Positions 4,348-26,324 of a stretch of DNA of 43,560 nucleotides are shown here, one piece after another. The notes beneath the pieces are model-generated. The model ran no database searches and was not told where the DNA came from. It saw only the letters and a list, made by a program, of their open reading frames with translations. This DNA comes from a virus: positions 1 to 43,560 of the IMG/VR virus record IMGVR_UViG_3300046318_000105; one strand, written 5' to 3'. How positions within the stretch are numbered: position 1 is the first letter of the stretch; each line of letters begins with the position of its first letter. The position numbers were made by a program, and so were the translations under genes.

Positions 4348-7300
4348 GTGAGCAAGCTAATCGATCAATTTGACAGCAACTTCGAGAACGAAGGGGGAAT
4401 CCGCCACGCTATCGTTGACATCATTGAGTCACGTCGCGCTGAGATCCCTGCTATCCGTATGGTTGAAGAGGACACTCTTTTCCAGGTTGCTGAGCGTGCA
4501 CTAGAGTCAAGCACCGACCTTGAGCCAGACGTCCGCTACTTTGCCGCACTTCGTGAAGTAACCAACTTCATTACGTTTGCCACTGAAGGTGCAATCTCTG
4601 ACATTGTTGCTAAGCACGCTGACCTACTTCCTGCTAGCCACCCAAACTCAAACGAGTCTGCAGTTATGACCGCTTCGGCTCAGCGTATGCTTCGCGCCGA
4701 GTGGATTGCAGCTGACGCTCGTATCACCGACGAGAACGTTCGCGCTATTGTTGCATCTGTTTACGGAAGCAACCCACTTTCGGTTGACTACGCCTACCAC
4801 CTATCCCGCCTAGAGAGCCTAGAAGAGGGTCAGGTCCCTGCTGACCTACTAATCCAGCCTCTACTTGCTTTTGGTGACCCATACGCCGGTAAGAACAGCT
4901 GGTGGCACCGTTCGATGCGTGCTAAGAAGCAGCGTCGTGATGACGAAGGTCAGTTCGCTGAGATGGGTGGCGGTTACCGCTTCTACGTCAAAGACCACCG
5001 CGGCCGTGTCTTCTCGGTTGTTGGTAAGGTTGCCGGTATCCCAGAAAACGACCCTAACGGCATCGACATCGAAGTTAGTGGCGTTGAGGGCATCCGCGAT
5101 GGTATCTACACCATTCCTGCAGCTGCCGGTCACTCATTCAAGGCTATTCTTCCAGAGCACGCCGTATCTAAGCGTATCCGCATCACTGGCGACAACCTAA
5201 ATGCCATTGACCTATCTTCTCTAACTCGTAAAGAGCTTCCTACTAGCTGGTTTGCAACTAAGGGCTCAAACGACAACACCAACCTTGACAACAAGGCTAA
5301 GGCTGACCGTTTCTTTGCTACTGGTGACGGCTATGTTGCTAACCTATACAACAAGCCTGACGAAGAGCTAGGTAAGCGTATCGCTGAAGCTCAGAACAAG
5401 TTTGGCGCTCTTGTATCGAGCGACCAGGGTACCGACACTCTAAACCCAGACAAGCCAGTCTACGAGCTTATCTCCACCAAGCGCGGCCAGCCAGAAGTTG
5501 TTGGCTACGCACAGGACTGGGCCACTCTACAGAAGTTTGCATCTGATGAAGATGACAACCACCCGGATGCTGAGAACGAGCCAATCGCCGTTGAGGAAAG
5601 CTCTACCAAGAAGCCTAAAGCGGCTCCAGAGGCTGCACCAGCTGCACCAGAGAGCATGGACGAGCTAGTTCCAAACTTGCCTGCATACGACGCTGTGGCG
5701 AACGTGCCAGATGGCTGGGTAGACAATGGTGACAACACTTTCACATCTGTTGATGGTAACTACGTAACTAAGTTTGGGCCTACAGATGTTGCCGCAGACT
5801 ATGTCTACTCCTACGACCCTGCGTCGGGACAAGAAGACCTACTACCTACAGGTGCCACCGTTAGCGATGCTTTCGCTACCTACAGCACTAAGGACGGCTC
5901 CGCTGTTGGTGGAGTAAGCTTCGACTGGAACGGTGTATCTGACGCTATCGACTCTGCTGACCAGGTTGAGGAGATGGCATCTCCTACCAAGCTTGACGTC
6001 GAGAACCTCGACCCTGAGCGTACCAAGTACATTGAGCCAGACACAAACATTGCTAAGCGTTCTGACGCTAACGCACCTATCTCTGATCAGCAGAAGAAGA
6101 ACCTACTTATCACAGTAAGTAACCGAGATATTCCAGACGCTATGATTGACGCTTGGGATGAAATGGCGTCGGACTGGCAGGGATTCAACTTTGCTAACGC
6201 TATGACTCTTCTTATCAACATGAACAAGTCTCCTAACCGTGCCGGAGGATACGTAAAGGCTGCTCAGCCTTACGAACGTCAGCGCATGCGTACCGCTCTT
6301 CTAAACCGAGATGTTCCAGAAGAGACCAAGAAGCTTCTTCTAGAGAGCTACAAGGGTATGGGTCAAGCAGACCTTCTCCAGCAGATTGCACTAGTAAACA
6401 CCTTCCCAGAGAAGAACGTTAACCCTAGAGAGAACCTTCAGGGAGAGCGTAAGCCTATTGTTGCTCCAGTAACCTGGGAGCGTGGAAGCACCACTGCAGA
6501 CTCTGCAAGTATCCCTAACCTACGTCCAGTAAATGCTGCACGTCACAAGTTCCCTCCATTCCCTAAGGGATTGAACGCAGATGGCACCGACTTCTACCCG
6601 CTAGTTTATGCCCTTACTTCTGCCTTCAGCTCTAAGGACGTCTCTGAGGACATGGTTAAGTTGTTTGATGACATGCTTAACCGACCTTCGGTTTATGGCT
6701 ACAAAGAGTTTGACCAGTTCATCAAAACTCTTAATAACCTAAAAGAGACCAACAAGAAGCTTGCCAGCACCGCTACTCGCAACCTAGTTAACACCATGAT
6801 GGATATGTCTCAGGGCGTTCCAGCTGAACTAGAAGAGAAGCTAAAGGGTCGCTACATGGCTGACCACGACGAGATCAATGCTCTAATCACTGAACTCATT
6901 CCTTTTGTTCCTGACTACGAGAAACTACAGGGTCGCGCAAAGACTGCAGAAGAGACTGCTGCTGCACGAAACCTAACTTCGGCTACCCCTAAGTATCTTG
7001 CAACAGACCTAACTGCTGACCAGGCTGCTCCTAAGCCTATGCAGCTAGTTATGCTTGAATCTCTAATCGAGAACAAGGACTTCTCTGACCCTGCAGCTAA
7101 GAAGGACCTAGACACCCTTATTGCAGAGCACCGCACCATGCCGTATCCTCTGATTCAGAGCTACATCAAAGAGTTCCAGCAGCTACCATACAAGACTCAG
7201 TTCCAGCCTAATATGCTGCACACCACTATCTCTAAAGAAGATGGTGGACCTACTCCACGTATGCTACGCTCCCTAGAGCGTTCACGTATCAAGGGTCTTA

Positions 7301-10300
7301 TTGGCGAGGACGCTTGGAACGAGATCACCAAGAACGCTCCTACCATGCTTGGTAAAGACCTTGCGGCAAAGTACCTACTTCCTTACAAGGACCTAGAAGA
7401 CAAGTACGATGATGCAGTTCTAGCTCGAAGCATCGAGAATGGCTACGAGATCGAGGGACTACGCGTTCCTGCTAAATCCACTGTATCTATCCCAGAGAAC
7501 TACGTTCCATCTAAGCCAGGAGTTTGGCTAGGAAGCACCGAAGACCAGATCAACGCTCAGCTTGACCTGTACGGAGCAACTAAGACTGACTCTGCCCCTA
7601 GCAGCGCCATGCTTAACGCGCTAAAGGGCCTGAACTCTGTCCTTAAGATCAGACAGTACGAGTCCACCCTTGAGGCGAATGACCTTGACGACTTCCTACA
7701 GCGTGAAGTTCTTCGCGCTGACCTGAAGCGTACTCGTAACGCCATCTCAGGTGCTGCAGCTCAGCTTGCTGACCTACTAGAGTCTAGCCCTGGAACTGCT
7801 GTAAAGGCAGATGCTGCTAAGATTCTTCGCGGTGCTATCGAGGGTCTTACAGACCTACGCTCTGTTCTAAACTTGAAGCGTACCAACGTACTAACCAAGA
7901 AGGAAGTAGACAAGCGTCTATCTGACCTAGCGATTGCTATTCTTCCTGGTGACGGATCATCTAGCCCACTAGGAACTTTGAAGAACAAGTCTCCAGAGAC
8001 CCTAGAAATCCTAGCTCGTGCTCAGAACATTGTTGGCTCTCTCGTTGGTCTATACCAGCAGGGCGGATCTGCTCCGGCTACTCCAACCACTCTAAATGAG
8101 GTTGAAGAGTCTTCGGCCAGTAGAAAGCCTTCTATGAAGTTCTTCTACCCACCAACATTTGCTGGCGAGGGTCTTGACCCACTTCGCGGTATGAACAACT
8201 ACAACGATGTTATTCAGTTCCTAAAGAACAACGACATCTATGTTCTTGACCTCGAAACAACTGGTCTAACCGATCTTGACGACTTTGAAATCAAGAACGA
8301 CCCTATCCAGATTGCTGTTACCAAGATTTCTGGCCTACAGGCTGTAGATTCTTTCAGCACCTACATCAACCCTCAGTCGAAGATCAGCTCTTACACCCTA
8401 AAGAGTGTTGGAGATGGTAAGGGCGGACGTGTCACCCAGGAGTTCCTATCGAGCTTCCCTACCAAGCGAGACGCTATGGCTCAGCTTAAGGAGTTTATCC
8501 CTCAGGGTGCTATTATTGCTGGACACAACTCAACCCTGTTCGACATGGAAGTTATCAACCGCACTATTGCCGAAGCCGGTCTAGACCCTCTAGAGCCTTC
8601 AGGCATGATTGATACTCTTGGTTTCGCTCGCTACATTATGCCTGAGTGGACCCCTGACAACCCTGACGCCCCTTTCAAGATCAATGCCCGAGGCGAGCAG
8701 ACCAAGTCCTTCTCCCTTGAAGCTCTTGTAACTTACTTCGGTCTATCCAATAACGGTCGTCACGAAGCTGACGCTGACGTTAGCTCGACTGTTGAGGTAT
8801 TCCAGAAGATGCTTGACCGAGCCTCTAGAGGTCTTGCTGTAGGTGGACGCGACTTCAACTACGACGAGTCTGATAACGGTTGGAACTACGATTCTTACCT
8901 TGCCGCAGAGACTGCCTACAAGCAGAGCTCCAGTGATTACATCCTGAGCCGTGTTGGAGATATCCTATCTCTTGAAGGTATGGGCCCTGAGCAGATTAAC
9001 TCTCTCATCACCTCTATGATTAACAACATTCAGTCCGGAATCACATCTGGCCAGGAGCAGCCAAAGGGCGAAGTAAATATCCCTGCAACTAACCCGCTAA
9101 GGGATCTGCCTGCTGGCTCTTACGTCCACGACAACTCAACTGGTCGCGCCGGTATCTCTATGGGTATTGTTGGAAACCACGTTCTAGTCGACTTCCCTGC
9201 TGCCTCTGTCTTGGCTGACGGACTTCGCATGGTGGAGAAGGTTCTACCAGAGTTCCTAGTAAACGCTACCCGCGACTTCCTAGCTGCCAACGGAGTCTAC
9301 CTAGACTATGGTATGCAGGTTAAGCACCCAGACCTACCTGGCGGTTACGGATACGTACTAAGTCTATCTGGCGACAAGGGTGGAAACATCTACGCTGGCT
9401 CTGCAGGCTATGCGGCCCAGTTCCCTGCCAGCAGCCTAGAAGTAGTTCCTACAAATGCTCCAGAAGGAAAAGCATCTGACAAGCAAGAGGCTCGAATCAT
9501 CAACCTAGTTGAAGAAGTAGTTTCTGCTGGGATTATGGACAAGGCTACAGCTCTACCTTTCCAGCGCGCTGCTGAAGGCCACCTCTATGACAAGAAGTCG
9601 GCTGGAGACGTTATCATGCGTCTCACTACCTCTCTGAACCAGTTCAGACAGCACGCTGCTAACAACGATATTCAGGTTGAAGCAGGTGAGCACGCTGCTC
9701 CTCAAATTGAGGAAATGGCTGCACCTAAGAAACCAAAGGACGCTAAAAAAGTCGAGGACATTAAGTTCAGCAAAGAGCTTGAAAAAGCAATGAAGGATCT
9801 TGACCTAGCACCTACCCCTGAAGGTAAAAACATCATTGGTGGTATCTCGAACGAGATGTTTATTGTAGTTAAGGCTCTTGCTGGTGTTGGTAAAACTACT
9901 AACCTACGTCTTGCAGCCGACACTATTATGAAGCTTAACCCTGCTATGAAGATTCTATACGCGGTATTCAACAAAGAAAACCAGATGGAAGCTTTGGAGA
10001 AAATGCCAGACAACACCGAGTCTAGAACATCTGACTCGATTAGCGTTATGGCTAGCGCAAACACCCAGCTACGCGGGAAGATGGATGCTCTAGCTCTACA
10101 GAACGAGCCTCACAACACTCCAGTTAACTTCTTTAGAGAAGCAGATATCGCTGATCTCTTTGGTGTAAAGGATGTTACCCTGTCTACAGGCAAGGATGTA
10201 CCTCGCGAGCGTGTAGCTGGCATTGCGTCTGCAGCCCTAAGAGCCTGGGTTCTATCTGACTCTATGAAAATCGATTCAAGCACTATCGACGCTATTGCTT

Positions 10301-13300
10301 CTCAGATGACTGAGAAGGAGATGCCTCAGAACGGCGAGGACTACCGACCATTTGTACGCCTTGTTCAGATGATGTGGGATGACATTACCTCTGAGCACGA
10401 CCCAGAGCGACGCCAGATGGTGGTTAACTTCAACCACCTATTCAAGAACTGGGCACTTACTCGTCCGAACCTTACCGAGGTAGATGGATCTGGAAAGAGC
10501 ATCCACGGCCTTAAGAGTGTCCCTGACTTCCTCCTTCTAGATGAGGCCCAGGACATTAACCCTGTGTTCCGACAGGTAATCCAGGACCAGTACAAGCTGC
10601 ACAAGAACGGCATTAAGATGATCCTTGTTGGTGACACCAACCAGGCTATCTTTGGATTCCGTGGAGCTGAGGATGCCCTTGGTATTGTGGACCGAGACCT
10701 AACCCTTCCACTAACCAAGAGCTACCGAACTGGTCAGGAAGTGCTAGATGCTGCTGCCAACAAGCTACTAGAGATGCTTGGCGAGCCGCTAAGACTTGTC
10801 GGTAAAGATGGCGGTGGCAGCAAGATTGTTGACAATATGCCGCTTGACCGAGTGGACCTAGCTCTTTCTCGTGGAACCGCTGCTATTTTGAGAGAAGCAA
10901 TCGCTGTTCAGGAGCAGTTCGAGAATGGTCGAATCGCTACCACTCTTAACTTTAAGCAAGAACTTTTAAACATGCTTAAAGCCATGACATACCTACAGCG
11001 AGTAGACTACATCAACTACGCTAATGCCGAGGCACGCAAGAACGATCCAAATGCTACTCCTCTGCTTCCACCTAAGCGTCCTATGATTCCTGGAGCATTG
11101 CTAGGTCTAAACTGGGAGACGATGTACGAGCTTCTATCTGAAGGTAAGGGCGACCAGTCTATCCAGCAGATTTGGAATGCAATCCGACGCCACGCTAGTA
11201 AGAACAAAATGAAGATTGGTCCAGCAATGTCTGACCTGCTGAATAATGTTATTCCTAACCTACGAGTAGTTAACCACGAGTTCCACCTACCAGCTGAACT
11301 AGAGTCAATTGGGTCTCTCGGTGGCGGACTTGACTACGAGATCACCGGTGACAAGATCATTATTAGGGATGACCCATCTGCTGGATTCAGTGCCCGTAAG
11401 ACAGCTATTAGCGGTGTCTACAACAACCGCAAGGTTCTTGAGGACTACGGATTCTGGAACCCTAGTAAGGATCAGGCTACCGGACGATACGGCTCATTTG
11501 AATGGGAAATCAACCTATACGATGATGGTCGCGACCAGCTGCAAGACCTTGTCAAGGGTCTCCGAGGCGAGGACGCCATGTTCCGCGTTATGACTGGACA
11601 CACCTCAAAGGGTCTTGAAGCCGATAACGTTAAGATTCTAGACGACTGGCTAGACCTAACACCATTCCTTCCAGGCGGAGACGCTGAGAAGCAGAATGAG
11701 CTGTTGGATCTGTTCCGCAAGCGTGGGCCAGACTTCAATCTTATGGAAGAAATCCGTTTGATGTATGTCGCTACCACTCGACCTCGCGCTCAGCTGGATC
11801 TGGGAAGCCTGAGCTGGATAAAAAACCACAGCCCTGAAGAGCTCAAGGCTGCTGTTGACGATATCCAAAAGCGACTAGCTATGGGATTCGGCGCAGTCGA
11901 GGAGAACGTAGAGTTCAAGACTCCAGAGGAGATTGAAGCTATCAAGAACCGCCCGACTGGTGAAGACGTTTCAGGCCTACAGCCTCGCACGGACTGGGAT
12001 AAAGAAGAGCCAGTGGAAGAGTCTCCTAGAGACCAGAACCTGCCACTTCAGCCTCGTTCCCGTGACAACGCTGAACTAGCCAAACTAAAGGAAGAAAGGC
12101 GCGAGCTCGTTAGCAAGATTGCTACCGCTAAGAGTCAGGGTAAGGAGCCTAGCAAGGCCACCGAGAAGAAGCTAGAGGATGTAAATCAGAAGATCTCAGA
12201 TATTGAGAACGCTGATAACGTTGAAGAATCTTCATCCAGAAAGCGTCCAAGCTCTCCTAACTACCAGGAAGAGTTTGACCGAAAGGTTGAAGGTCTGAAG
12301 ATGGCTATTGCAACTGCCAAAGACATCTTAAAGATCGTCCCTGAAGACCGAACTGGAGACTTCAAGGGCTACGCTGACACCAACATTGAAGAAACTATCG
12401 GCGGACTACAAGAGGACCTAAAGGCCCTACTTGATAACCCAGACATGTTGGAGCGCGACGATGAGGAAGACTACCGCATTGCCGAGCGTCTACTGGCTAA
12501 GCTAAATGCAGATAAGATGGCTAAACTCGACATGGGTGATCTGATGGATGCTCGCCGCATTGTGAAGAACAAGAGCGATATCACTGGAACTGACCAGAGC
12601 TTTGTCTATGGTACTACTCCACCTATCTACCTCAACCGGGTAATGCTGGACTCGCTAGGGAAGATGAAGGACCATCTGTATCGTAAGCTGAAGCACGACG
12701 AGAAGCTGGACTTTGCTCCTTATGTTTCGGACCAGGTTGAAGAGTCATCCTCTCCTGTAGAGGGTATCTCTCCAGAAATGGAAGAGAAGCTCTACAACAT
12801 TGTTGAAGAGGCTGCTAAATTCTACAGCGATCGCTTGATGAACTTCGACGACCCAGGTGCCACTGAGGCAAAGAAGTACGTTGTATCTCGTGGATTCGGT
12901 GCTGCTAATGCCGAAACCTTCAAGGTTGGATATTCTTCGAAGAACTGGGCTGACCTATATCAGCACCTACGTCGCAAGGGATTCTCTGAAGAAGAGATTC
13001 TAGCCTCGGGACTAGTCAACAGAAGTGAAAACAACGGACGACTATTCGATGCCTTGCGCAATAGACTAGTCTTCCCTGTTAGCAACGACAAGGGCCAAGT
13101 AGTTGGTTTCGTTGGACGCTCGATTGACCCTGAAGAATCAATCCGCTACATGAGAACCAAGGGTACCCCGATCTTCCAGAAGTCGAGCACTTTGTTTGGT
13201 CTAGACCAGGCTAAGGATGCAATCGCTGAGTCAGGTGAGATGGTAGTTGTTGAAGGTCAGTTTGACGTTCTAGCAATGCACGCGGCCGGTATCAATAATG

Positions 13301-13788: not shown

Positions 13789-13838
13789 CCCCTCAGGTTT
13801 ATTGGTATACTTGTAAAAGACTAATCAATCGCGATAGT

Positions 13839-13875
13839 TACCCCGTTAATTTGACAACTGCTAATTAACGGGGTA
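13839..13875. promoter_or_regulatory. Perfect 13-bp palindrome overlapping a promoter
   Basis: The arms TACCCCGTTAATT (13839-13851) and AATTAACGGGGTA (13863-13875) are exact reverse complements with an 11-base centre. The palindrome reaches from the first base of the -35 to the first two bases of the -10 of the promoter at 13851-13879. This geometry suits a repressor operator. No T-run follows, so a simple terminator is less likely, though the 3' end of the 3146-residue gene is only 50 bases upstream. Confidence 0.7.
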
Positions 13876-14172: not shown

Positions 14173-14176
14173 AACT

Positions 14177-14461: not shown

Positions 14462-17400
14462 CCTAGAGTTTTATAAAGACCCAGAAGAGCCTATCGTTGC
14501 CTCCGCTCTAAAGAACGGCAAAGAGTGGGGTTATTGGGCTGACATGCAGCTGCGCGATCCGGGAGGAGAGCGCGGTGGTTGGTTCATCGAGATGGGTGGC
14601 CTCAACCTATTCAATGGTAAAGGTAAAGATGGAAAAACCCGCAGCTATAAAGGTAAGTATATTGGCCCTTCTCCGCTTGGTCAGGGCTATGGCCGCTTCC
14701 TAGTTGAAGGAAACGACGATGGTGTAGAGCCTGGTGTCTACCACGTAAACGTAGCCAACATTGACTCCGTTAAGGGTGTCCTTAGCGACGAGTACCTACG
14801 TAGTCTGGGCCGCGATGTGCCTGTTCAAAAAGAAGGTATCGTCGACCTATCCAAGACTCGCATTGACCCAATCACTCCTCAGGACCTAGAGGACGCCAAC
14901 ATTGAGGCAGACAAGCCTAAGAACCTAAAGAAAATTGCTAAAGACCGCGGTCAGTCTGCTAAAAAGCTAAAAGACCTAAAAGAAGGTGACCTTCTCTACG
15001 ACGAGGGCAACAAGCGCTATGGTGAGGTTGTGTCTGTCCTAGACAAGGATGGAAACTTTAGCCCATGGGTTAAGTGGGAGAACAATCAGATCTCGCAGAT
15101 CCCTAGTGCAGACCCTGAGGCTGAGACCACTGTATGGGCAGCCCCTGAAGTTGAAGAGTCAGCGACCCCTAAAAAGACTGTAAAGGGTAAAGACCTACAG
15201 GTCGGAGACGTTATCCGAGCTTGGGATGAAAACCGCACTATCAAGTCTATCGAGCCTGCTGGTGGCGGAGACCGCTACGTCACCTTCGAAACACCTGGTG
15301 GTGGAGAAGAAGACGGCAAGCTTATCAACATGAAAGATGATGTTGAGCTTGGTCAAGAAGAGGCTCCAGCTGCTCCAGCTGCCCCTGCTGCTACTAAAAA
15401 AGCAAAGCCTGGCAAAGTTCCTGCCTCTGACGTTAAAAAGGGCGACTCTGTTGTAATTAACGGTGAGACCTATACTGTCTCTAAGAAGAGTAATCAGAAG
15501 ACTGGTGGCGAGATTGTCGGTCACAAGATCGAGTTCAAGGCTGAAGACGGTACCACCTTTGAAGAAGAGTTTGCTCCTGATGACCAGCTAGATACCCCTG
15601 CGGCTGAGGCAGTCACAGAAGAAAAAAAGAAGGCCCCACCTACAGTCCTTAAGAGTTTTATCTCGGAGCTTAAGCCTGGCGACGTTCTCGTTACTGGTAA
15701 AAAAGATGCTTTTCAGGAAGTACTTTTTGTATCTGCGGAACCCCTACCGCCAGTAGATAATAACGACACTCGCAAGCGCTACAAGGTGACAGTCCAACTT
15801 GCTGATGGCGGACTTCAGACTGTAGAAGTTGATGGCACTGAAGGTATCCCTCAGCGTGCTGAAACAGGGGCTGACGGCAAAACTAAGAAGGCAAACCGCA
15901 AGGATCAGCTCAAGGTTGCCCCGACCGCGCCAGCTCCAGCTGCCACAGCAAAAAAGAAGCCAGCCACTACTGAAGCTGCTGAAGGCACTACAACTGGAGA
16001 GGTAAAGACTAAGGCCCCAGAAGTAATACCTACCACCCCTATGTCGACCAACCCAGGAGACTCTGGCGAGGTGGTTAAGGGAATCAACTATACAGTTCTT
16101 CCTGACGGTAAGCTCCTTATTCACGGCGGTCGAGTAAACGCCAATAGCCGATCTAAAGACTTAATCAAAACCACTGTACGCGGCGAGATTGACCGATCTG
16201 GTAACGGTAAGGCTGTTAGCTACTTTAACCGCAGTGATAAATCAGACATCGAGTTCCCTGAAGGTGTGAAGAACGGTTGGATCGTAGATTTCACCCCGAT
16301 CAAGGATTCTAAGAAAGACCTAGCTCAGCAGTTCCTAGACAGTCTGCGCGGACACATGGCTAAGGAAAAGGTAGCGTCGTCTGAAGAAGCGGGAACAACC
16401 TTCTCTGGATCTAAGAGCACCAAGGGTAGTATCACAGACACTGCATCCTACGAGATCGATGAGAATGGTACTGTAAAGATTTCTGGCCTAACCGAGGAGC
16501 AGGTTGACCTTGTTGTTGAGGCTATGTACAGTGTTGACGGAACTACTCCGCTTGACCGCCCTGGAAGTGTTTCAACCAAGGTGGACTCTAACAAGGATGA
16601 AGACCGCGCTGCTGTTCTAAAGGCTGTTAGCGATATTCTTGGAGGATCTGCTCCTGCCACAACTACCAAGACTACTGTAGAGCTGGATGGCGGTGAGGAC
16701 GCAGACACTTCTAAGACTGGTACTGAAACAAAGACCGAGACTGAGACCAAAACCGAGACCGAGACAGGTACCGAGGTAGAGGCAGGCACTGAGACCGCTC
16801 AGGAAGAAGACAAGCCTACCGATGAGCAGCGCAAGACTATTGACGACCTCCTCGCTCAGATTAACGACGAGACCAACTTTACTGCCAAGATTGTTAGGTC
16901 AGCACTAGATGGCATGAATAAAGAGGCTGCAGACCAGGCTATTGAGATGCTTAAGGCTGCAGTTGCTAACGCCAAGGCACCTACCACTACTGCCCCTGCC
17001 AAGTCTGTATTTACGCCTGGCCAGATTGATAGCGTTAACCGACGTCTAGACCTACTAACCCCTGAGCAGCAGGATAAGATAAAAGAAGCAATGGCATCCG
17101 CAACTTCTGCGAATGCTAAAGACGTCATGTCTAAGATCATAAATACCCTTGACAACGCTGAACTTATCAGCCGTATCCGTAAGGGAATGCCTGTTGACGA
17201 TATCCTTGCCAAGCGCGAGAACCGAGCTGTCGGGACTAATCTACTCTTTGACCTAGACCGCTCCCCTAAGGAAATCGCCCAGAGACTTGCTACCTATAAG
17301 CCGACTGTAAACCTAGATGGTACCCCAATCACTACCGCTCCGGCCACAACCAAGGTTGAAGAGCCTATTGTAGAAGTACAATCTGTATCTAAGCCAGAGT

Positions 17401-20400
17401 TCTTTGACCCAGCTACACACTTCCCTACTGCAGAGCAGAACAACAACGCTTACTGGGACTGGGCTAGAGAGTCGCTCAAGAATAAGACAATCTCTCCAGA
17501 GGATCTAAAAGAGCTTCTAGGTAGACTGAAGAACGAGCTTATAAGCAGCCAGGTCGCGTCTCACGGTACGGACAAAGATGGTAACGATATTAGGTCTAAT
17601 GTTCTAAAGAGCAATATCCTAAACTACCTAGAAAAGCACCCTGAGGCAGACCTAGAAGAAGTCCTTAATGTTTATGGCGGCACATTAGACAATGAGACCG
17701 CTAAGAATCTTATGAAGTGGGGCGGGCAACTAAAACTTGCTGGCCATGAAGATGCTTACCGAGAGATGCGAGACGGTGCCCTCAAAGAGTTATCCGATCT
17801 AGCCGCTCAATACTACAATGAAGCCAAGGCTGAAAAATCCACCAATACAGAGGGTGCAACTGGAACCGAAGGCGACCAGGCAGTTACCACTGGCCAAGAG
17901 CGTCCAGAGGGCGGTGTTGCAAAGAAGATCTCTGAACTTAACGTTGGAGATCGACTATACGACGAAGAGACCGAATCTATGGCCACCGTTGTTGGTGTCT
18001 ACGAAGACCCTGATCGTGCCGGTCGCATCGTTCTTACTATTCGTTTTGACGATGGTCGAGAAGATGTGTCCTCATACAAGAAGTCGCACACTGTCGAGAC
18101 TTACCCAACTGAAGAAGAGCCTGCTGCAACAACCACATCTAGAACTACTGAAGATGTAGTTGGTGGCGAGGATGCAGATACTTCTAGGACTGAGACCGGT
18201 ACTGAAGCTGATACTGAGGTCGAGGTCGAGGTCATAGAAGAGCCTCAGATTGCAGTGGAGCAGGGTGAAGCTATTGATGCTGAGCCAGGGTCTACTGTTC
18301 TAGATGACCCAGAGACAGAAACTGCTGAACCTACAAAACCTAAGCGTAAGCCAGCTGGTCCTCGTAAGCCTAAAAAGGTAAATCTTTCAGACGTTTCCGA
18401 TGAAGAGCGCGAAGCATTTATTCGCATTTTCGATGCTCTAGAGAACTTCAATCGAGTTGAGGAAGAGTATGGCGGCAAAAAGTACGACCCTAAGTACTAC
18501 ATCGACGAAAAAGACCGCAAGTTTGACAACAAAGATGTAGAAGAGCTAGCCTCTGAGAACACTAAGGGTATTGGCGAGGATCTAGGAGTCCAGCTAATGG
18601 ACCCAACCACAGACGCCTTCGAGCCTGGAAGTGACTGGAGTGTACGTCAACCTACCCCTGGTGCTTTCACTGGCCGCGTTGCCCGCATGCTCGAGGGTAA
18701 GACCAAGTCTGAGGCCAGGGACATCCTTAAGAGCCTTAAGGTTTCTTGGTTTGACACTGAAACTACTGGAATCTCTGGTTTTGACGGGGACCCAACTAAC
18801 AACGATGTTGTGCAGGTTGGTATTGTAAATACACAGGATGGTGAGGTTCTAGATCGTCTAAACATCTACATCAACCCAGGCATCGAGAACGGTGTTCAGC
18901 TAGGCAAATGGTCGGCTGAAAACCTAGTCAGGGATTCACTTGATGACGAAGGAAACCCAATCCTAGGTCCTGATGGTAAGCCTCTAACTGAAAAGGTCAC
19001 TAATGAGTGGCTATCTGAGCAGATGTCGATCACCGAAGCCGTTCAGCAGATTATGGACTTCATGGGCCGTGACCCAATTATTGGTGGTCAGAACGTTCCG
19101 TTCGACCTTCAGGTTCTTCAGCGTATGTTTGATAAGGCTGGGGTCCGCGGCTTCCACATCACTGGAACTATTGACTCTAAAGACCTATCTGAAGAGTTCC
19201 TACCTAAGTACAACGAGTACGAAGGAACCGAAGGCCCTAAGAGATTTGACAAGGCTAAGAATAAGTTTGTACCTACCTCCAGCCTCGGTTATGTGGCCGA
19301 GTTCCTAGGGTTTGGAACTACACGTTGGCACTCAGCCGATGGTGACGCCGAGGATGCTTGGAAACTTGCTTCTGCCACTATGGACCGAGCAGCTGCAGCG
19401 GATCCAGACGGAACTAGCGACCTAATGAACCGGGACGCCATGAGAAAGCGCTACCAAGAGCGTATGGCTAAGTTCCTAAAGACTATTGACCCACGCAACC
19501 CATCTACTGCTAAGCAGCATGGCGCGGTTCGTAAAGAGGGCTTTGGCGAATACCTAGACGACCTAGGTCTCTCCCGCGACCACCAAAACGCCCTATTCGA
19601 GCAGATTAAAGAGATGACTCGCGGTGAGGCCGCTAAGTTTATTAGCACTTTCATTCAAGCCAACCCTCTACCTAAGCCTAGTACTAAGCCTTCTATCCAA
19701 AGAAGAGAGATTAGCCTAAGTCAGGTACTTAAGAATGTCGAGTCACTAGAAAGACTGAAGTCCCAGCCACTACCAGCAGGACTACGCAACCTAGGTAAGC
19801 GTCCAGCCGACCTTAAGGTTCAGCACTCGCACTTTGACTATGAGTTCAAAAAGTTCCTGAAGAAGCAATACCCTGACAAGAGTATCGCTGAGATCTGGGC
19901 ATCTAGTATGACTGACCCTAAGGTCGAGCAATACTTCAACTATTTTTCTAAACTATATGAGAAGACTTTATCACTTCCTTCAAATGAAGCATTCTCTATT
20001 GGCAATGCCACAATCTCAGCGAGGGAGGGCCTGCTTAACGAGCGAGACTTATCTGTTGTCTCTAATGCTCTAGATATACTACAGGGCCGATTCTCTCTAG
20101 GGGAGACACCTATTCGAGTGTCCTACCTACCTCAGGCAGATGTAGACAATCTAGTTGGAAAACAAGGCACTGCTGGATACGCCTACGTTGACGAGCAGGG
20201 CGCTCACATGGTTCTGTCTGAAGGAATCCTAAAGGGCTATGAATCAGACCCTAGAGAGGGTAGGTCTGACAACCAGGTTCTTTCGCACCTAGCCACCATT
20301 GTCCACGAGTACGGACACCTAGTTCATGCAGCATTACTTGGATCTAACTTTACTGAAGAGGAAGAAGCTGACCTAGCCAAAGAGTTCCAACGCCGGTTCA

Positions 20401-23400
20401 AGAAAACTAGGGTCACGGAATACGGTGAAACTAACACAGCTGAGAAGTTTGCTGAAATGTTCTTTGACATGGAGTATAGCCGAATGGAGGGCACCGAGCC
20501 AGCCATCCCAGAGTTCACCAAGTTTATGGAATCTATCAAGGGTCGTAAGGCTGCTATTAAGCCATCCTTCCTAAACAAACTAGGTATTAAAAAACCTCAG
20601 CGACGAGAGATGCCACCAGAGAACACCAAGCCAGAGTTTGATGGAGCTACTAAGCTTTCTGGTGCTGACCTGGATGCTTTCGAAGGCTCCTCTGAGGCAC
20701 TACGTGGCAGTGACCAAGAGGCTGGTTACATTCCTGACCCTAACAATGAAAAAGCCTTTAACGAGTTCTGGCGTCAGGTAAGCCCTAATGCACGCAACCC
20801 TATATCTGAGGTGCAAGCGCGTATCCAGTTTAAGAAGGAAATCGAGAAGGCTAACAGAGATACTCGACGCTACGAAGTTCTTAAGGTTGAAGGTACTAAC
20901 TCCTATATCCGCTATAAGAGTGGGGATGCTTCTCCAGAAGCCATCCAACAGACTATCGATCAAATGCGTGACCTTGAGGACTTCAATGTTGCTGGCGGCA
21001 TTTCTCAGGTCGTAACTCTAGCCAAGCGCGGAACCTTCTCTGTTGCAAGAATGTTTGCTACCACTCAGGGTACCGATGAAGAGATCCACGGATACTCACT
21101 TCTCGATGCAACTGATAGAGGTATTGGTCATATTGTTGTTGACCCTTCTCAGGTGTCTGTGTCCCCTAAGTCTGTAGTAGACGGGTACCACTATGACAAG
21201 GGTGGAACTGACGCTCAGAACATGCTGAAGCGTACCCTAGTTCACGAATATGCCCACAACTGGGCCAAAGTGGTTCTTGGGCACCGCCAGCAAGACAGCG
21301 CAAGATTTGAAGAGTTTGTGCAGAGCGTGGTCCAGAGAGTTCAGACTTCTGACGGAAAGCTTGTCCACCCTATCTCTGAGATCGGAGAGGGTTCGGATGG
21401 TGAAAGCTTCTCTGAGTTCTTTACAGCTGCCTTCTTCCAAATCGTTGAAGGTCGCATGCTCCCTACTAAGGGGTCTCCACTTGATCAGTTTATTCAGTTC
21501 TTCGCTAAGTATGCCGGATCCAATGTTGAGCCGATTATTAAGAATGTCAGACCAATCCCTCAGGTTGAAGAATCATCTTCCGGTGGACAACGACTAAACT
21601 TCCCGAATGTCTGTGAAGGCATCGGCCCTAAAAACATTAACCTAGAGTACGGCCGACGTAGAGAGTTCTACCGAAACGGCCTGGACCCATACGGACGTCC
21701 ACTAAGCGATAGCCGTAAAGAGATGGTTAGCGACTACAGCGACTACATTGACAAGCTAGAGTCGATATACCAAGACACCAAGAGTGCCGATGACTTCGAC
21801 ATTATGACCTCAGCAATGACGGCTCTGAAGCGAATCTATGACTCTATGTTCTTTGCCTATGCTAGAAATAACTCTAGATTCAATGTAGGCACCATTGGTG
21901 ATGATATTGACACCAATGAGCAGAGCTTCCGTAGCTGGACAGCGCCAGTGTCTCCACTATTCTTACCAGAGTCTGAGGGCCCGTTCAAGAATGAAATGAC
22001 TACTGGACGCTACACCGACCCTAATGGCGTTTCGTACCCACTTGTATACATCTCTTCGACTAAAGCAGATGGCCGCACATACACAGCTGCAGTAGCTCTT
22101 AGCCCAGATAACGCTGACTTCGATCTTGCTAGTGCCGATCTAGATACCCTTATCGAGGCATCTGTTGGTAAGATGATCACCATCTCTGATAAAGAGAAGA
22201 CTGGCCAGATCCTTGACCACGTATCTATTGATGGCGACTTCCGTCGCAAAGGTATCGCCACATCCCTCCTGTCGTTTACTAGAAGCAATACAACTAAGAA
22301 GGTTCTACACAAGGGTAACTCTACTCCGGACGTATCTGCCTGGGCTCAGTCGGTTGATAAGTCTGAGCAGTCCTACGTGTCTACTCCACGTGCATTTGAC
22401 GATGCTTCTCACGTTGCTCGCCATAACCGTCACGCTATTAACCTAATCTCCGACCGTGAGCCACCTAAAGAGATCGATACATCAGCGGAAACCCTAGAGT
22501 CTGAAGCGATTCACTATGCTGGAGAGAACTATGGAGAGTTCTACCACCCTAACTTGCAGGACTACACCTCTAGACAAGGTGGCGGTCTCGGTGTCTACCA
22601 CTCTACAGTTGGATATGTTTCAGCTGAAACCCTTAGTTCGATGCGTGGCAATGAGCCTAAAGACCCAGAGAGCGTTGCGAGTAAGGTAGAGGACCTTCAG
22701 GGTGGCGATGGATTCGACCAACCAGTAAGTGTTGTCTATAACCCTCGCACCGGTGAGGCCTATGTAGCCGACGGAAACCACCGCGTCCAGGCTTCGCTAG
22801 ATGCCGGAGTATCCCATGTCCCTACTAGGGTCTTCGTGATGGATGTCCCTCCTGCACAAAAGAACGCTCAGGTAAAGAAACTAGAGCGCGATGGCGGTCT
22901 ACCTCTTCCAGAAGGTGCAGATGAGGTGCACCCATACTTCGTATTCAACAAAAAAGACCTAGTCAACGGAGAAGACCTATCTGACCCTAGCATTGTTGAA
23001 GAAATGTCTTCTAATGTTGTCGTTTGGTCCGGCCGCGGTAAGTCATCTGACCGAAACCGCTCTGCGAAGTTCGATCCAGACCCTAACAATATCTTTGAGA
23101 AACTTGCTCCAGGTGAGTACGTTATGGATAAGAAGACTAACAAGATTTACCAGGTATACGGACAGGACTTCACTACTCAGGTAAATGCGGATGGTGTAGA
23201 AGAAGTTGTATTCACTGGAAAGATTATCGTTCGAGAGTTTGAGGGTAACCTAGACAATCTAGATAGAATTAGAATCTCGACCAACTTTAACAATGGCAAC
23301 ATTCGCTACTCCAGGGTTGGAAATGCTTCGGCTGATGGCTCGTACAACGATGTTAGATCCTACATTGATGAGCTACGCGACCCTGCTGATTTCGAAAATG

Positions 23401-26324
23401 TCACTGACTCATTTATGAAGCTTAGCGATCAGCCTATTCTCATTAATGACACCATGTATTTTGTCCAAACTGAGACTGGTATCAAGGGTAGAATCTCTAA
23501 GTTTGTGTCCCCTGGTGTAGTTAGACTTGATGTTCTAACTGGGTACGATGAAGATGGAAACCCTACCTATGACCAGATTGAATCTCCTGTAACCCAACTT
23601 CTACCGATTCAGAACCAGCAGCAGGTCCCTGACGGTGAACCTGCTATGGAGCATGCCCCAGATATGCAGATATCTAACGCCACCTGGGACTCGATTAATA
23701 CCCTGTCTGCTACGTTGCTTAAGTGGGGCTATCTATCAGAAGATAAGTACAAGGCTATCCAGACGCTAGTTCACGGTAAGTTTATTACTCAGAGTGGTGC
23801 GCTAGAGCTTGAGCGTACGCTTAGAAACCACGATGTTGTTAGACGAGCAAAGATTCGCGGTGTTGCAGTTAAGGCCCCTGTTACCGGCGAGCCTACTACA
23901 CAGGCTCCTGCTCAGCAATCCGCCCCAGCTGCCCCTGCAGCGCCTTCGGTTGGTCAGGGTGAGGCTGGAGGCCGTTCATTTGAGCAGCTTCTAGAGATGA
24001 AGCGTGCCCGCAGTAAGGCTGATGCCGGGCTATCCGTAGAAGAGTTTGCATCTCCTGTCACAAAGACAAAGGTATCTAAGAACCCTCCTACCCAAAGCCA
24101 GATCCTAGAAGTAGAGCGTCTTCTTTCTGAAGATGGTGCGGTAGATTCGCAGCGCGCATTTGATATCCTGTCTTCACTACCTACGCTAAATGCAGACGCC
24201 ACCGAGGCTGTTCTAGATGAGATCCGAGCAGACGTCCTCAACAAGAGGATCTCTAAGGATGAAAGCATCACTGGCCTTGTAGTACCTAAGGGCTTTAATA
24301 CCTCTAAGATTTCTGGGTACCAGCCATCTGTAGAAGAATCAGCCACTGGTTTTGAGATTGATAGGGATGGCGAGCAGCCATCTGAGGGTGAAGAGGATAC
24401 TCCAGAGATAGCTCCAGAAGATGGCAAGCCTGGCATCTCATTCAATGCCCAGCAGAAGTCAGCTATTGACTCTGTAGTCAGCAGCGAGGGTGGCCTATTC
24501 TTCATTACTGGTGGTGCTGGTACCGGTAAGACCACCATTAAGAAAGAGATTGACAAGCGCGAGAAGGCTAAAAATAGAAAAACTATGACTATTGCCCCTA
24601 CTGGAAAGGCAGCGCTTCAGGCCGAAGGAGTTACAATTCACTCTGCCTTTAAGATTCCAGTTGGCCCGCTAACTGACTTCAGCCCATCCGATACTTATGC
24701 TAAAAACATGTCAACTGGCAAGGGTCGTAAGTCTATGGCTGCCCTACGTGCAGCTGACACTATCTTTATTGATGAAGTATCGATGGTCAGGGCAGACCTG
24801 ATGGATGCCATGGATCGAATGCTTAGACTTGCCAAGGGCAACATGTCTGAGCCTTTCGGCGGAGCTAAGATCGTTATGCTCGGAGACTTGGCGCAGCTTC
24901 CTCCTGTAGGAATTGACTCTAGCCCTGAGAACCAGGAACCTCGTCAGCGTTTCCAAGAAACTTATGCCGATGACTACTTCCTGAGCTCTAACGTGTGGGC
25001 ATCTTCTGCATTCGAAGTACATAACCTAACTGAGTCTATGCGTCAGAGCGCAGCTGATGACGCCTGGTTCGAGCAGTTCCTGAGGGAGAGGGCTCGATTT
25101 GCTGATGTTACTCAGGAAGACATGGAAAAGCTATGGGAGATTAGCGAAAGAAACCGAAAGCGTGATGCTGAGGAAGCTAATAAGGCTGAACCTGTCCACC
25201 TTGTATCTACAAATGCCGCTGCAGATGAAATCAATAAGAAGAAGTTTGCTGAGCTAGAGGGTGAAGCGGTTAAGTTTACTGCTGTTATTGACGCTCCAGA
25301 AGGCTCTGACACTAAGCAGTTTGTTCGAAACGGTGGCTTACCTAAAGAGGAAATGGAATACAAGATTGGTGAGCCTGTCATGTTCATCAAGAATGATGAT
25401 GTGCAGCAGCGTAAGGCTGCTGGAGGTAACCTCCCAGACGAGTCTCGCTGGGTAAATGGTAGTCAAGGAATCATCACAAGATTCGACTATGCTGAAGGTG
25501 AAGACGGTAAAACTCCTATCGCTATCTACGTGAAGGTTGGAGATAAGGAACACCGAGTAGTACCTGCTACATGGGAAGATGTAGAGTACGGAGTATCTAC
25601 CAAGATTGAAGATGAGAAGACTATCGTCGAGAAGCCTACTCAGGAAGTACTATCTACTTATACTCAGATCCCTTTGATGCCAGGATGGGCTATGACTACC
25701 CACAAGTCTCAGGGAGCTACCATGGACTCGGCTGTAGTCGACTACGAGGTTAAGTACTCTCCTAACGGAGACATTCTTTCTAAGAATAGTCCTTTTGCTG
25801 CCGGACAAGTCTACGTGGCACTTAGCCGACTACGTAGCTCAGATGGTCTCTACTTGACTAGAAAACTTAAGAGAGATGACTTTATCCGCATCGAGCCTAG
25901 CGTTACAGACTTCTTCAAAGAGGTTGACGCTCAGACGGCTGCAGACCAAGCATCTGAAAGCTCTGCTGTAAAGAAGTTTGACCCGCTGAAGGGATATGTC
26001 TCTGAGGCAGATCTATCTTCTGCACTAGATGGTGGAGAGCTTACTGGTCCAAACGGCCAAAACCTTACGGACTACCAAGCTACTGCTATCAAAAACAAGC
26101 TACGTCTAATGCGCGAGAACCCAAACAGTGCTGGCCGCTACAAGGAAGAAATCGCTAAACTGATGAACTCTTGGTTCGGTATCGAAGAGCCTGGAGACGA
26201 AACTCCAGCTGTAGCCACCCCTATTGAGATCCGTATGGATAACTTCCGTGACCCATCGGAGCGTCAGGCTGCATTGGATCTGCTAACTAAGAGTGGTATC
26301 CCATACACTTTGAAGTATGACTAG
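14451..26324 (+). CDS. Giant polyvalent protein: SH3-like repeats, DEDDh exonuclease, two zincins, GNAT, ParB-like, Pif1/RecD2 helicase
   Basis: About 3957 residues from ATG 14451 (AAGGAG at 14432-14437). An in-frame start at 14343 is possible but the extra 36 residues lie over the coding part of the preceding gene. In order: an N-terminal GGWFIEMGG region (43-51); four xxLKxGDxL SH3-like repeats (170-470) and a fifth near 1160; a Thr/Glu tract (757-785); DEDDh exonuclease (D1435, E1437, D1552, H1627, D1632); HEYGH (1952-1956) and HEYAH (2265-2269) zincins; a GNAT-like domain (about 2500-2650); a ParB-like DGNHR (2774-2778); and a Pif1/RecD2-type helicase (K3360, D3441-E3442, TTHKSQG near 3750). 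V-E-E-x-S/A motifs stand at 234, 2372, 2849, 3196 and 3294. The mix is typical of polyvalent proteins; virion packaging is inferred. Confidence 0.9.
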   Translation: MTFNLEFYKDPEEPIVASALKNGKEWGYWADMQLRDPGGERGGWFIEMGGLNLFNGKGKDGKTRSYKGKYIGPSPLGQGYGRFLVEGNDDGVEPGVYHVNVANIDSVKGVLSDEYLRSLGRDVPVQKEGIVDLSKTRIDPITPQDLEDANIEADKPKNLKKIAKDRGQSAKKLKDLKEGDLLYDEGNKRYGEVVSVLDKDGNFSPWVKWENNQISQIPSADPEAETTVWAAPEVEESATPKKTVKGKDLQVGDVIRAWDENRTIKSIEPAGGGDRYVTFETPGGGEEDGKLINMKDDVELGQEEAPAAPAAPAATKKAKPGKVPASDVKKGDSVVINGETYTVSKKSNQKTGGEIVGHKIEFKAEDGTTFEEEFAPDDQLDTPAAEAVTEEKKKAPPTVLKSFISELKPGDVLVTGKKDAFQEVLFVSAEPLPPVDNNDTRKRYKVTVQLADGGLQTVEVDGTEGIPQRAETGADGKTKKANRKDQLKVAPTAPAPAATAKKKPATTEAAEGTTTGEVKTKAPEVIPTTPMSTNPGDSGEVVKGINYTVLPDGKLLIHGGRVNANSRSKDLIKTTVRGEIDRSGNGKAVSYFNRSDKSDIEFPEGVKNGWIVDFTPIKDSKKDLAQQFLDSLRGHMAKEKVASSEEAGTTFSGSKSTKGSITDTASYEIDENGTVKISGLTEEQVDLVVEAMYSVDGTTPLDRPGSVSTKVDSNKDEDRAAVLKAVSDILGGSAPATTTKTTVELDGGEDADTSKTGTETKTETETKTETETGTEVEAGTETAQEEDKPTDEQRKTIDDLLAQINDETNFTAKIVRSALDGMNKEAADQAIEMLKAAVANAKAPTTTAPAKSVFTPGQIDSVNRRLDLLTPEQQDKIKEAMASATSANAKDVMSKIINTLDNAELISRIRKGMPVDDILAKRENRAVGTNLLFDLDRSPKEIAQRLATYKPTVNLDGTPITTAPATTKVEEPIVEVQSVSKPEFFDPATHFPTAEQNNNAYWDWARESLKNKTISPEDLKELLGRLKNELISSQVASHGTDKDGNDIRSNVLKSNILNYLEKHPEADLEEVLNVYGGTLDNETAKNLMKWGGQLKLAGHEDAYREMRDGALKELSDLAAQYYNEAKAEKSTNTEGATGTEGDQAVTTGQERPEGGVAKKISELNVGDRLYDEETESMATVVGVYEDPDRAGRIVLTIRFDDGREDVSSYKKSHTVETYPTEEEPAATTTSRTTEDVVGGEDADTSRTETGTEADTEVEVEVIEEPQIAVEQGEAIDAEPGSTVLDDPETETAEPTKPKRKPAGPRKPKKVNLSDVSDEEREAFIRIFDALENFNRVEEEYGGKKYDPKYYIDEKDRKFDNKDVEELASENTKGIGEDLGVQLMDPTTDAFEPGSDWSVRQPTPGAFTGRVARMLEGKTKSEARDILKSLKVSWFDTETTGISGFDGDPTNNDVVQVGIVNTQDGEVLDRLNIYINPGIENGVQLGKWSAENLVRDSLDDEGNPILGPDGKPLTEKVTNEWLSEQMSITEAVQQIMDFMGRDPIIGGQNVPFDLQVLQRMFDKAGVRGFHITGTIDSKDLSEEFLPKYNEYEGTEGPKRFDKAKNKFVPTSSLGYVAEFLGFGTTRWHSADGDAEDAWKLASATMDRAAAADPDGTSDLMNRDAMRKRYQERMAKFLKTIDPRNPSTAKQHGAVRKEGFGEYLDDLGLSRDHQNALFEQIKEMTRGEAAKFISTFIQANPLPKPSTKPSIQRREISLSQVLKNVESLERLKSQPLPAGLRNLGKRPADLKVQHSHFDYEFKKFLKKQYPDKSIAEIWASSMTDPKVEQYFNYFSKLYEKTLSLPSNEAFSIGNATISAREGLLNERDLSVVSNALDILQGRFSLGETPIRVSYLPQADVDNLVGKQGTAGYAYVDEQGAHMVLSEGILKGYESDPREGRSDNQVLSHLATIVHEYGHLVHAALLGSNFTEEEEADLAKEFQRRFKKTRVTEYGETNTAEKFAEMFFDMEYSRMEGTEPAIPEFTKFMESIKGRKAAIKPSFLNKLGIKKPQRREMPPENTKPEFDGATKLSGADLDAFEGSSEALRGSDQEAGYIPDPNNEKAFNEFWRQVSPNARNPISEVQARIQFKKEIEKANRDTRRYEVLKVEGTNSYIRYKSGDASPEAIQQTIDQMRDLEDFNVAGGISQVVTLAKRGTFSVARMFATTQGTDEEIHGYSLLDATDRGIGHIVVDPSQVSVSPKSVVDGYHYDKGGTDAQNMLKRTLVHEYAHNWAKVVLGHRQQDSARFEEFVQSVVQRVQTSDGKLVHPISEIGEGSDGESFSEFFTAAFFQIVEGRMLPTKGSPLDQFIQFFAKYAGSNVEPIIKNVRPIPQVEESSSGGQRLNFPNVCEGIGPKNINLEYGRRREFYRNGLDPYGRPLSDSRKEMVSDYSDYIDKLESIYQDTKSADDFDIMTSAMTALKRIYDSMFFAYARNNSRFNVGTIGDDIDTNEQSFRSWTAPVSPLFLPESEGPFKNEMTTGRYTDPNGVSYPLVYISSTKADGRTYTAAVALSPDNADFDLASADLDTLIEASVGKMITISDKEKTGQILDHVSIDGDFRRKGIATSLLSFTRSNTTKKVLHKGNSTPDVSAWAQSVDKSEQSYVSTPRAFDDASHVARHNRHAINLISDREPPKEIDTSAETLESEAIHYAGENYGEFYHPNLQDYTSRQGGGLGVYHSTVGYVSAETLSSMRGNEPKDPESVASKVEDLQGGDGFDQPVSVVYNPRTGEAYVADGNHRVQASLDAGVSHVPTRVFVMDVPPAQKNAQVKKLERDGGLPLPEGADEVHPYFVFNKKDLVNGEDLSDPSIVEEMSSNVVVWSGRGKSSDRNRSAKFDPDPNNIFEKLAPGEYVMDKKTNKIYQVYGQDFTTQVNADGVEEVVFTGKIIVREFEGNLDNLDRIRISTNFNNGNIRYSRVGNASADGSYNDVRSYIDELRDPADFENVTDSFMKLSDQPILINDTMYFVQTETGIKGRISKFVSPGVVRLDVLTGYDEDGNPTYDQIESPVTQLLPIQNQQQVPDGEPAMEHAPDMQISNATWDSINTLSATLLKWGYLSEDKYKAIQTLVHGKFITQSGALELERTLRNHDVVRRAKIRGVAVKAPVTGEPTTQAPAQQSAPAAPAAPSVGQGEAGGRSFEQLLEMKRARSKADAGLSVEEFASPVTKTKVSKNPPTQSQILEVERLLSEDGAVDSQRAFDILSSLPTLNADATEAVLDEIRADVLNKRISKDESITGLVVPKGFNTSKISGYQPSVEESATGFEIDRDGEQPSEGEEDTPEIAPEDGKPGISFNAQQKSAIDSVVSSEGGLFFITGGAGTGKTTIKKEIDKREKAKNRKTMTIAPTGKAALQAEGVTIHSAFKIPVGPLTDFSPSDTYAKNMSTGKGRKSMAALRAADTIFIDEVSMVRADLMDAMDRMLRLAKGNMSEPFGGAKIVMLGDLAQLPPVGIDSSPENQEPRQRFQETYADDYFLSSNVWASSAFEVHNLTESMRQSAADDAWFEQFLRERARFADVTQEDMEKLWEISERNRKRDAEEANKAEPVHLVSTNAAADEINKKKFAELEGEAVKFTAVIDAPEGSDTKQFVRNGGLPKEEMEYKIGEPVMFIKNDDVQQRKAAGGNLPDESRWVNGSQGIITRFDYAEGEDGKTPIAIYVKVGDKEHRVVPATWEDVEYGVSTKIEDEKTIVEKPTQEVLSTYTQIPLMPGWAMTTHKSQGATMDSAVVDYEVKYSPNGDILSKNSPFAAGQVYVALSRLRSSDGLYLTRKLKRDDFIRIEPSVTDFFKEVDAQTAADQASESSAVKKFDPLKGYVSEADLSSALDGGELTGPNGQNLTDYQATAIKNKLRLMRENPNSAGRYKEEIAKLMNSWFGIEEPGDETPAVATPIEIRMDNFRDPSERQAALDLLTKSGIPYTLKYD
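14965..15870 (+). repeat. Four tandem SH3-like (KOW-like) protein repeats
   Basis: Coding repeats in the 3957-residue protein: LKDLKEGDLLYDEGNKR, GKDLQVGDVIRAWDENR, ASDVKKGDSVVINGETY and ISELKPGDVLVTGKKD begin about 75-80 residues apart and share a x-L-x-x-GD-x-V/L core followed by beta-rich sequence. A fifth, ISELNVGDRLYDEETES, lies at about 17930. They are divergent at DNA level. Such small beta-barrels often mediate protein or nucleic-acid contacts; role here unknown. Confidence 0.7.
18723..19400 (+). other. Domain: DEDDh 3'-5' exonuclease (DnaQ-like), second copy
   Basis: About residues 1425-1650 of the 3957-residue protein. WFDTETTGI gives D1435 and E1437, QNVPFDLQVL gives D1552, and RWHSADGDAED gives H1627 and D1632. 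The complete DEDDh set is present. It is clearly divergent from the copy at 8230-8824, so this is an old duplication or separate recruitment. Confidence 0.9.
19980..20550 (+). other. Domain: zincin-like metallopeptidase 1 (HEYGH)
   Basis: About residues 1845-2035. IVHEYGHLVHAALLG supplies H1952, E1953 and H1956, and AEKFAEMFFD supplies a plausible third ligand (E1998 or E2002) about 45 residues on. This is the gluzincin-like arrangement found in many phage polyvalent proteins. Target unknown; host or self-processing are both possible. Confidence 0.8.
20880..21520 (+). other. Domain: zincin-like metallopeptidase 2 (HEYAH)
   Basis: About residues 2145-2360. LVHEYAHNWAKVVLG supplies H2265, E2266 and H2269, followed by ESFSEFFTAAFF with a likely glutamate ligand about 50 residues later. 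It has the same layout as zincin 1 and ends just before the VEESSS linker at 2372, so the two may come from a tandem duplication. Confidence 0.8.
21960..22420 (+). other. Domain: GNAT-like N-acetyltransferase
   Basis: About residues 2505-2655. DHVSIDGDFRRKGIATSLLSF resembles GNAT motif A, in which a beta strand is followed by R/Q-x-x-G-x-G/A that holds acetyl-CoA. The second glycine position is Ala in RRKGIA. Preceding strands (YPLVYISSTKADGRTYTAAVALS) fit the fold. Substrate unknown. Confidence 0.6.
22590..22848 (+). other. Domain: ParB/sulfiredoxin-like
   Basis: About residues 2715-2800. QPVSVVYNPRTGEAYVADG then NHRVQASLDAG and HVPTRVFV match the ParB/Srx fold core, where the D-G-x-H-R motif sits in the nucleotide-binding loop. 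Such domains recur in phage polyvalent proteins as nucleases or nucleotide-binding units. Confidence 0.75.
24438..25910 (+). other. Domain: Pif1/RecD2/Dda-type SF1B helicase
   Basis: About residues 3330-3820. FNAQQKSAIDSV, GGAGTGKTT (K3360), PTGKAALQAEG, IFIDEVSM (D3441, E3442), MLGDLAQLPPVG (about 3477), TTHKSQGATMD (about 3749) and VYVALSRLRS (about 3785) are the ordered motifs of this 5'-3' helicase family. It begins soon after the VEESATG linker at 3294. Confidence 0.93.

Follow-up and report, generated by a model that had tools for sequence, protein, structure and literature searches.

The question raised by this locus is why one short peptide, V/I-E-E-[SMF], recurs at the borders between enzyme domains of two giant phage proteins, and what should read it. 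The window analysed here is the whole of a 43,560-base virus record, whose closest relatives are uncultured IMG/VR contigs, and these phages are uncultured actinobacterial phages with giant multi-enzyme proteins. A first-pass annotation had proposed that the peptide, below called the tag, is a prohead protease site and that the giants are a polyprotein cut during head maturation.

Gene organization

The genes lie in the order of portal, Dps-like protein, GIANT1, GIANT2, capsid maturation protease fusion, major capsid protein, and tail genes. Gene starts were set mechanically, and the relatives used for comparison are mostly fragments of uncultured phages. The main genes are as follows.

938..2737, + strand: portal protein, tag-free
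2750..4345, + strand: Dps-like protein between portal and giants, with no full tag and one VEESLK match
4348..13788, + strand: GIANT1, a 3146-aa polyvalent protein with exonuclease, UvrD-like helicase, and DnaG-like primase
14451..26324, + strand: GIANT2, a polyvalent protein of about 3957 aa with exonuclease, two zincins, and PIF1/RecD2-like helicase
26418..30920, + strand: capsid maturation protease fusion, a 1500-aa gene, judged an unlikely reader of the tag
31052..33094, + strand: major capsid protein, tag-free
38311-42306: probable tape measure, a tail gene

Since the first 36 codons from GTG 14343, where the open frame of GIANT2 begins, overlap another small ORF, ATG 14451 is probably the start of this gene. 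The Dps-like protein is possibly another packaged internal protein, and relatives have a longer gene (664-743 aa) in its slot. Between GIANT1 and GIANT2 are two tandem, apparently paralogous small proteins of about 85-100 aa (13909-14172 and 14156-14461), which share a core RTG-x-DP-x-K and are found only in some of the motif-bearing lineages. Judged by the protease fusion, the nearest named phages are Actinomycetia phage DSL-LC01 and phages of Microbacterium and Arthrobacter, which have one giant gene in the same portal-to-protease slot. In L119 (G011), L210 (G028), and L218 (G035), one open frame between portal and protease has a length of 5850-6550 aa, which is very large for a phage protein. 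Upstream of its head genes, DSL-LC01 (L001) encodes what is annotated as a subunit of an HslV-like ATP-dependent protease (2960-3649).

Enzyme modules

The modules assigned in the two giants are listed below.

8242..8802, + strand: RNase_T (DEDD) exonuclease domain of GIANT1 (Pfam PF00929, E=6e-17)
9862..11796, + strand: UvrD-like helicase of GIANT1 (Pfam PF00580, PF13361)
12856..13512, + strand: DnaG-like primase of GIANT1, DNAG_N and Toprim (Pfam PF08275, E=1e-32; TIGR01391)
18672..19574, + strand: second exonuclease domain, in GIANT2 (phrog_192, E=1e-20)
19980..21602, + strand: zincin-like metallopeptidase domain pair of GIANT2, a candidate reader of the tag
24417..25058, + strand: PIF1/RecD2-like helicase core of GIANT2 (Pfam PF05970, E=4e-31; TIGR01448)

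The first-pass annotation had placed the tags at 8101, 9706, and 12736 ahead of exonuclease, helicase, and primase, respectively, and Pfam supports all three assignments, as RNase_T-type exonuclease (aa 1299-1485), UvrD-type helicase (aa 1839-2483), and DnaG-type primase (aa 2837-3055). A homologous DnaG-type primase module is placed in the second giant in G011 and G017. The zincin motifs of GIANT2 are HEYGH at 20304 and HEYAH at 21243, with the downstream Glu-containing segments AEKFAE and GESFSE. Sequence-profile and fold searches for this pair point to zincin metallopeptidases, with globally weak matches (TM about 0.2) and a structure model of moderate confidence (pLDDT 73.5). GIANT2 also shows weak GNAT/ParB hints.

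Tag sites in GIANT1 and GIANT2

All twelve V/I-E-E-[SMF] sites of the first-pass annotation are present, with the coordinates and residues that it gave. The first seven are in GIANT1 and the others in GIANT2.

5590..5607, + strand: VEESST; VEESAA in L011
5965..5982, + strand: VEEMAS; kept in L011, and at the same border IEDMSS in L013 and LDRISP in G001
8101..8118, + strand: VEESSA, ahead of the exonuclease; pLDDT about 25, with several different versions in other lineages
9706..9723, + strand: IEEMAA, ahead of the UvrD-like helicase; pLDDT about 25
12013..12030, + strand: tag-like VEESPR, the weakest site, not kept in the 86%-identical relative
12220..12237, + strand: VEESSS; VEEFSS in L011
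12736..12753, + strand: VEESSS, ahead of the DnaG-like primase; IDKMAA in G001 and IEEMAT in L013
15150..15167, + strand: VEESAT; at the same border LDKMAA in G001, EQEMAG in G016, and QLMAFK in G003
21564..21581, + strand: VEESSS, directly after the second zincin
22995..23012, + strand: VEEMSS; elsewhere at this border IDKMAA, MFMQYE, IQEMAI, GFAQAA, and IVDPLR
24036..24053, + strand: VEEFAS; elsewhere at this border IDKMAP, QFMRFP, and SVDRKV
24330..24347, + strand: VEESAT

Across GIANT1 and GIANT2 the pattern [VI]EE[SMF][SAP][STAR] matches 12 times; residue shuffles gave 0.038 matches on average and first-order Markov shuffles 0.094, with a maximum of one match in both. When the window's other head proteins, including portal, protease, and capsid protein, were scanned with the tag pattern, none was found to carry it. 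When aa 1182-1860 of GIANT1 were modelled with AlphaFold, at low overall confidence (pLDDT 59.9), both sites of this segment fell in stretches with pLDDT of about 25-28 and better-folded parts on either side, so that these two tags are in predicted disordered linkers.

Two other accounts of recurrent letters in the giants were dropped. Shine-Dalgarno-like DNA or internal starts at VEE-M do not fit, since the M is missing at most sites and the codons of other lineages are unsuitable, and MTA|SA by the N-terminus of GIANT1, considered as a conserved propeptide cut, is not kept across lineages.

Tags in related phages

In L011/L025, which are 86% identical to the window, 11 sites are kept with small changes within the motif. 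In more distant relatives VEE is missing at the same borders, and each has one other peptide that recurs at almost every border of its giants. These motifs, mostly found by a motif search without a prior pattern, have 4-18 copies within the giants of their own lineage.

G001: [IL]D[KR]MA (IDKMA), 14 sites against 0.06 expected
G003 and G004: P[QM][LF]Mx[FY], about 10 sites each
G007 and G008: GFAQxPG, 18 and 14 sites, with 0.1 expected for GFAQ
G009: NMA[VI]P, 4 sites, an assignment on few sites
G011: P[IV]VD[RKA][KM], 8 sites
G015: VNYAP, 7 sites counting near variants, an assignment on few sites
G016: QEM[AS], 7 sites
G017: SAVD[RKA][KM], 8 sites
G028: GPSPKxE, 18 sites against 0.000 expected
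G029: PSQNRE, 10 sites against 0.000 expected
G039: P[IV]YH (P[IV]YHS), 7 sites, one PIGHP match being left out
L013: IE[DE]M[SA], 5 sites

Wherever whole contigs were scanned, the lineage motif was essentially restricted to the giants, and for GPSPKxE and PSQNRE 100% of the matches in the contigs of G028 and G029 are inside the two giants and on the coding strand. Homologous borders carry differing tags. Ahead of the conserved PPxFxG with which the exonuclease module starts, the window has VEESSA, and L013, G001, L020, G011, G017, G003, and G004 have IEDMSI, IDKMVS, IDRMID, IVDRKI, AVDKMI, QLMSFK, and QLMAFE, respectively; a comparable series precedes the UvrD module and segments B.4 and B.5. 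Many of the window's motif-delimited segments have an aligned counterpart in other lineages whose beginning or end is only a few residues, and at most about 20, away from a motif of that lineage. Tag-free borders also exist, e.g., at the primase in G011, G016, and G017, and motif-free relatives have Pro/Glu-rich linkers instead. The motifs have no universal scissile residue across lineages; a universal [MFY]-[AS] core was considered and rejected, being plausible in several lineages and failing for GPSPKxE and PSQNRE.

Concerted turnover and probable selection on the peptide

The mean BLOSUM score is +16.7 among paralogous tags within a genome and -2.0 among orthologous tags between genomes; the difference was reached in none of 5000 permutations. 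The 6-mers compared were aligned to the motif by visual inspection, and the orthologous score is somewhat too low for this reason. In the sister phages G028 and G029 (giants 61% and 42% identical), many shared borders read GPSPKxE in the former and PSQNRE in the latter. The first-pass annotation had expected the motif to be kept in related phages; taken literally it is not conserved, yet it is swapped in concert.

Codon identity among the tag sites of the window is 0.46, against 0.42 expected from codon usage. At the codon level the sites are thus about as dissimilar as expected, and the unit of selection is most likely the peptide. DNA-level copying of linkers is not supported by these codon statistics, and recent copying is unlikely. 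Something should then read the tag, and its replacement in concert rather than its loss points to a different, fast-changing reader. One short site at many domain borders, with the sites drifting together, is the arrangement found in a self-processed polyprotein.

Zincins as candidate reader

Zincin-like domains with HExxH, intact in the window, would be a putative protease encoded within the giants themselves. Every one of the 16 genomes with a motif has such domains in its giants, as do 4 out of about 27 genomes with none, a count that leaves out a few partial giants (L013, L075) and in which zincins outside the window were scored by the HExxH pattern and not by structure. The zincin-containing genomes with no clear motif are G014, G037, G038, and Mimi, and about two dozen genomes have neither zincin nor motif. 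Since zincin-less giants of 5000-6500 aa (G031, G034, and G035) are tag-free, size alone does not explain the link; overall, the zincin-free large giants without tags range from 4611 to 6548 aa. Genomes that have both zincin and motif also share ancestry and module content, which confounds the association: Fisher values ignore the tree and are descriptive only, and in the independent sample alone the association is not significant (p=0.17). Zincin types vary among motif genomes (HEYGH, HELTH, HELAH, and HEIGH). Unusual divergence of zincins between phages with different motifs was looked for and was not found.

Alternative readings

The first-pass annotation had the adjacent prohead protease cut after VEE in head maturation, in the manner of T4. 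That the adjacent 1500-aa gene encodes a protease is confirmed by its capsid maturation protease domain, and its position beside the giants favours this reading, as do the letters of the tag, a T4-like hydrophobic-x-E in which VEE|S resembles the Glu-P1 prohead sites AXE|S of SPN3US (PMC10052503) and E120|S121 of P1 (PMC9024508). The likeness is one of letters, and the behaviour across relatives is against it. A prohead protease would be expected to cut mainly the major capsid protein, yet this protein is tag-free in every lineage checked. Genomes with VEES, IDKMA, P[QM][LF]MxF, and GFAQxPG have protease cores of 71-78% identity, in which some segments are near-invariant. Most other lineage motifs have no Glu at a common position, and in most relatives the pattern enriched in protease and capsid protein is [VIL]xA[SG], not VxE. 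A substrate of the T4 gp21 type should have the tag in the major capsid precursor and keep the P1 Glu where the protease is closely similar, and neither was found. Given the tag-free capsid protein and the conserved protease core, we consider the prohead protease an improbable reader, and from the earlier proposal of a polyprotein we retain the punctuated borders, with a real motif, modelled linkers, and flanking motifs of each lineage's own, but not the protease.

Docking without cutting is the main rival, though a rather unlikely one: the tags would bind a partner, whether a domain of the giants themselves or a scaffold, packaging adaptor, or the capsid interior, and their many copies would serve to load the giant into the head or to fold and assemble it there. 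Being short, linear, multivalent, linker-borne, and co-evolving, they have the traits of docking motifs, and capsid-targeting peptides are known from P1 DarB (first 30 residues) and T4 IPIII (PMC9024508). However, the tags are spread over most module borders instead of being confined to one end of the protein, and no partner is obvious, since capsid protein, portal, and protease are similar across lineages with unrelated tags; conservation of the portal and capsid proteins therefore argues against both as partners, unlike the giants, which themselves diverge fast. The tandem small genes beside GIANT1, which were also rejected as a general reader, occur in some motif lineages only. A host protease or other host factor that reads the tag after injection, with tags tracking host changes, would account for conserved virion proteins not co-varying with the tag, but it leaves the zincins in every motif genome unexplained, and we regard it as very improbable. 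Least probable of all is a neutral linker, in which modules were joined by linker copying and the tag has no reader. The tags are indeed located in linkers, and motif-free relatives have Pro/Glu-rich ones, but the codons have diverged as codon usage predicts while the 86%-identical relative retains the residues and G028 has 18 copies of its motif. Neutral copies of such age should no longer be recognisable.

Concerning the head proteins themselves, the relatives L002, L003, L004, and L006-L008 show a strong excess of [VIL]-x-A-[SG] in the protease fusion and in the pro-region of the capsid protein; the Big4 protease has 17 matches against 5 expected. This pattern is reminiscent of VxA|S, the herpesvirus assemblin consensus, and may be what the prohead protease really cuts. 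In nearly all lineages checked, a conserved stretch like [VM]TA[SA] precedes the mature part of the capsid protein.

Proposed processing of the giants

The tag is repeated, essentially confined to the giants, located between modules, kept at the protein level, and turned over in concert between lineages. The reading that we prefer, and to which we give an even chance, is that the tag is a recognition peptide at which the giants are cut into modules, likely by their own zincins and not by the prohead protease. Each giant would be synthesised as one long chain, which cleavage at the tags would divide into individual enzymes, i.e., exonucleases, helicases, primase, and others, presumably in the head or after injection. 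The cutter may be a zincin-like domain inside the giants, a step that we propose more tentatively than cleavage itself. The concerted drift of the tags would follow from such a reader, since a trans-acting protease with shifting specificity would make all of its sites drift together.

Comparison with known systems

Polyvalent proteins were named by Iyer et al. (2017), who proposed self-processing by zincins, citing P1 DdrB, and described N4 vRNAP as packaged uncut (PMC5512222). The present giants fit this class, since like P1 DarB/DdrB and N4 vRNAP (PMC5512222) they have many enzymatic domains per chain, including nuclease, helicase, primase, and zincin, and are encoded beside head genes; packaging and injection are putative. 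The zincin MPTase is the commonest hub domain of polyvalent proteins and is not obligatory (PMC5512222). A DNAG primase is listed there for polyvalent proteins of conjugative elements only, whereas here (12856-13512) it is in a phage one. The text of PMC5512222 does not mention 'linker' or 'short motif', and we found no repeated border peptide described in it. The tags may be the missing processing sites of polyvalent proteins, and the expected properties are present.

Compared with the substrates of T4 gp21, SPN3US gp245, and P1 Pro, the tag has a similar Glu-P1 site, and head proteins may hold several prohead-protease sites in propeptides (PMC10052503). The differences are the tag-free capsid protein, the protease conserved despite tag change, and the mostly unmatched Glu. 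The giants of DSL-LC01, of the Microbacterium phages Big4, Pumpernickel, Cece, A3Wally, and Zooman, and of the Arthrobacter phages Atuin and Mimi occupy the same slot and have partly homologous modules; unlike those of the window, they have Pro/Glu-rich linkers and no repeated tag, and HExxH is found only in Mimi.

No description of concertedly evolving domain tags was found in the literature searched, with most subscription journals outside the search. The tags give a concrete candidate for how polyvalent giants are split, a step predicted in 2017, when the sites were unnamed. At least ten lineage-specific address peptides, together with candidate readers, form a natural series in which the simultaneous change of a recognition code at many sites can be studied, and from which orthogonal site-specific proteases or binders could possibly be obtained. 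Should the tags instead be docking peptides, they would be a code for cargo loading into phage heads.

Polyproteins of picornaviruses and alphaviruses have a self-encoded protease and one short site repeated at the borders. The giants are alike in having many enzymes in one chain, a repeated border site, and joint drift of the sites, and are unlike in that they belong to a tailed dsDNA phage, that their cleavage is presumed, and that the site changes into unrelated letters between relatives. We put forward, as a suggestion with less than an even chance, that the early-infection enzymes of this group of tailed dsDNA phages are made as true polyproteins, with a built-in zincin and a lineage-privatised cleavage code that turns over in concert at up to 18 sites, which would perhaps avoid cross-processing by co-infecting relatives.
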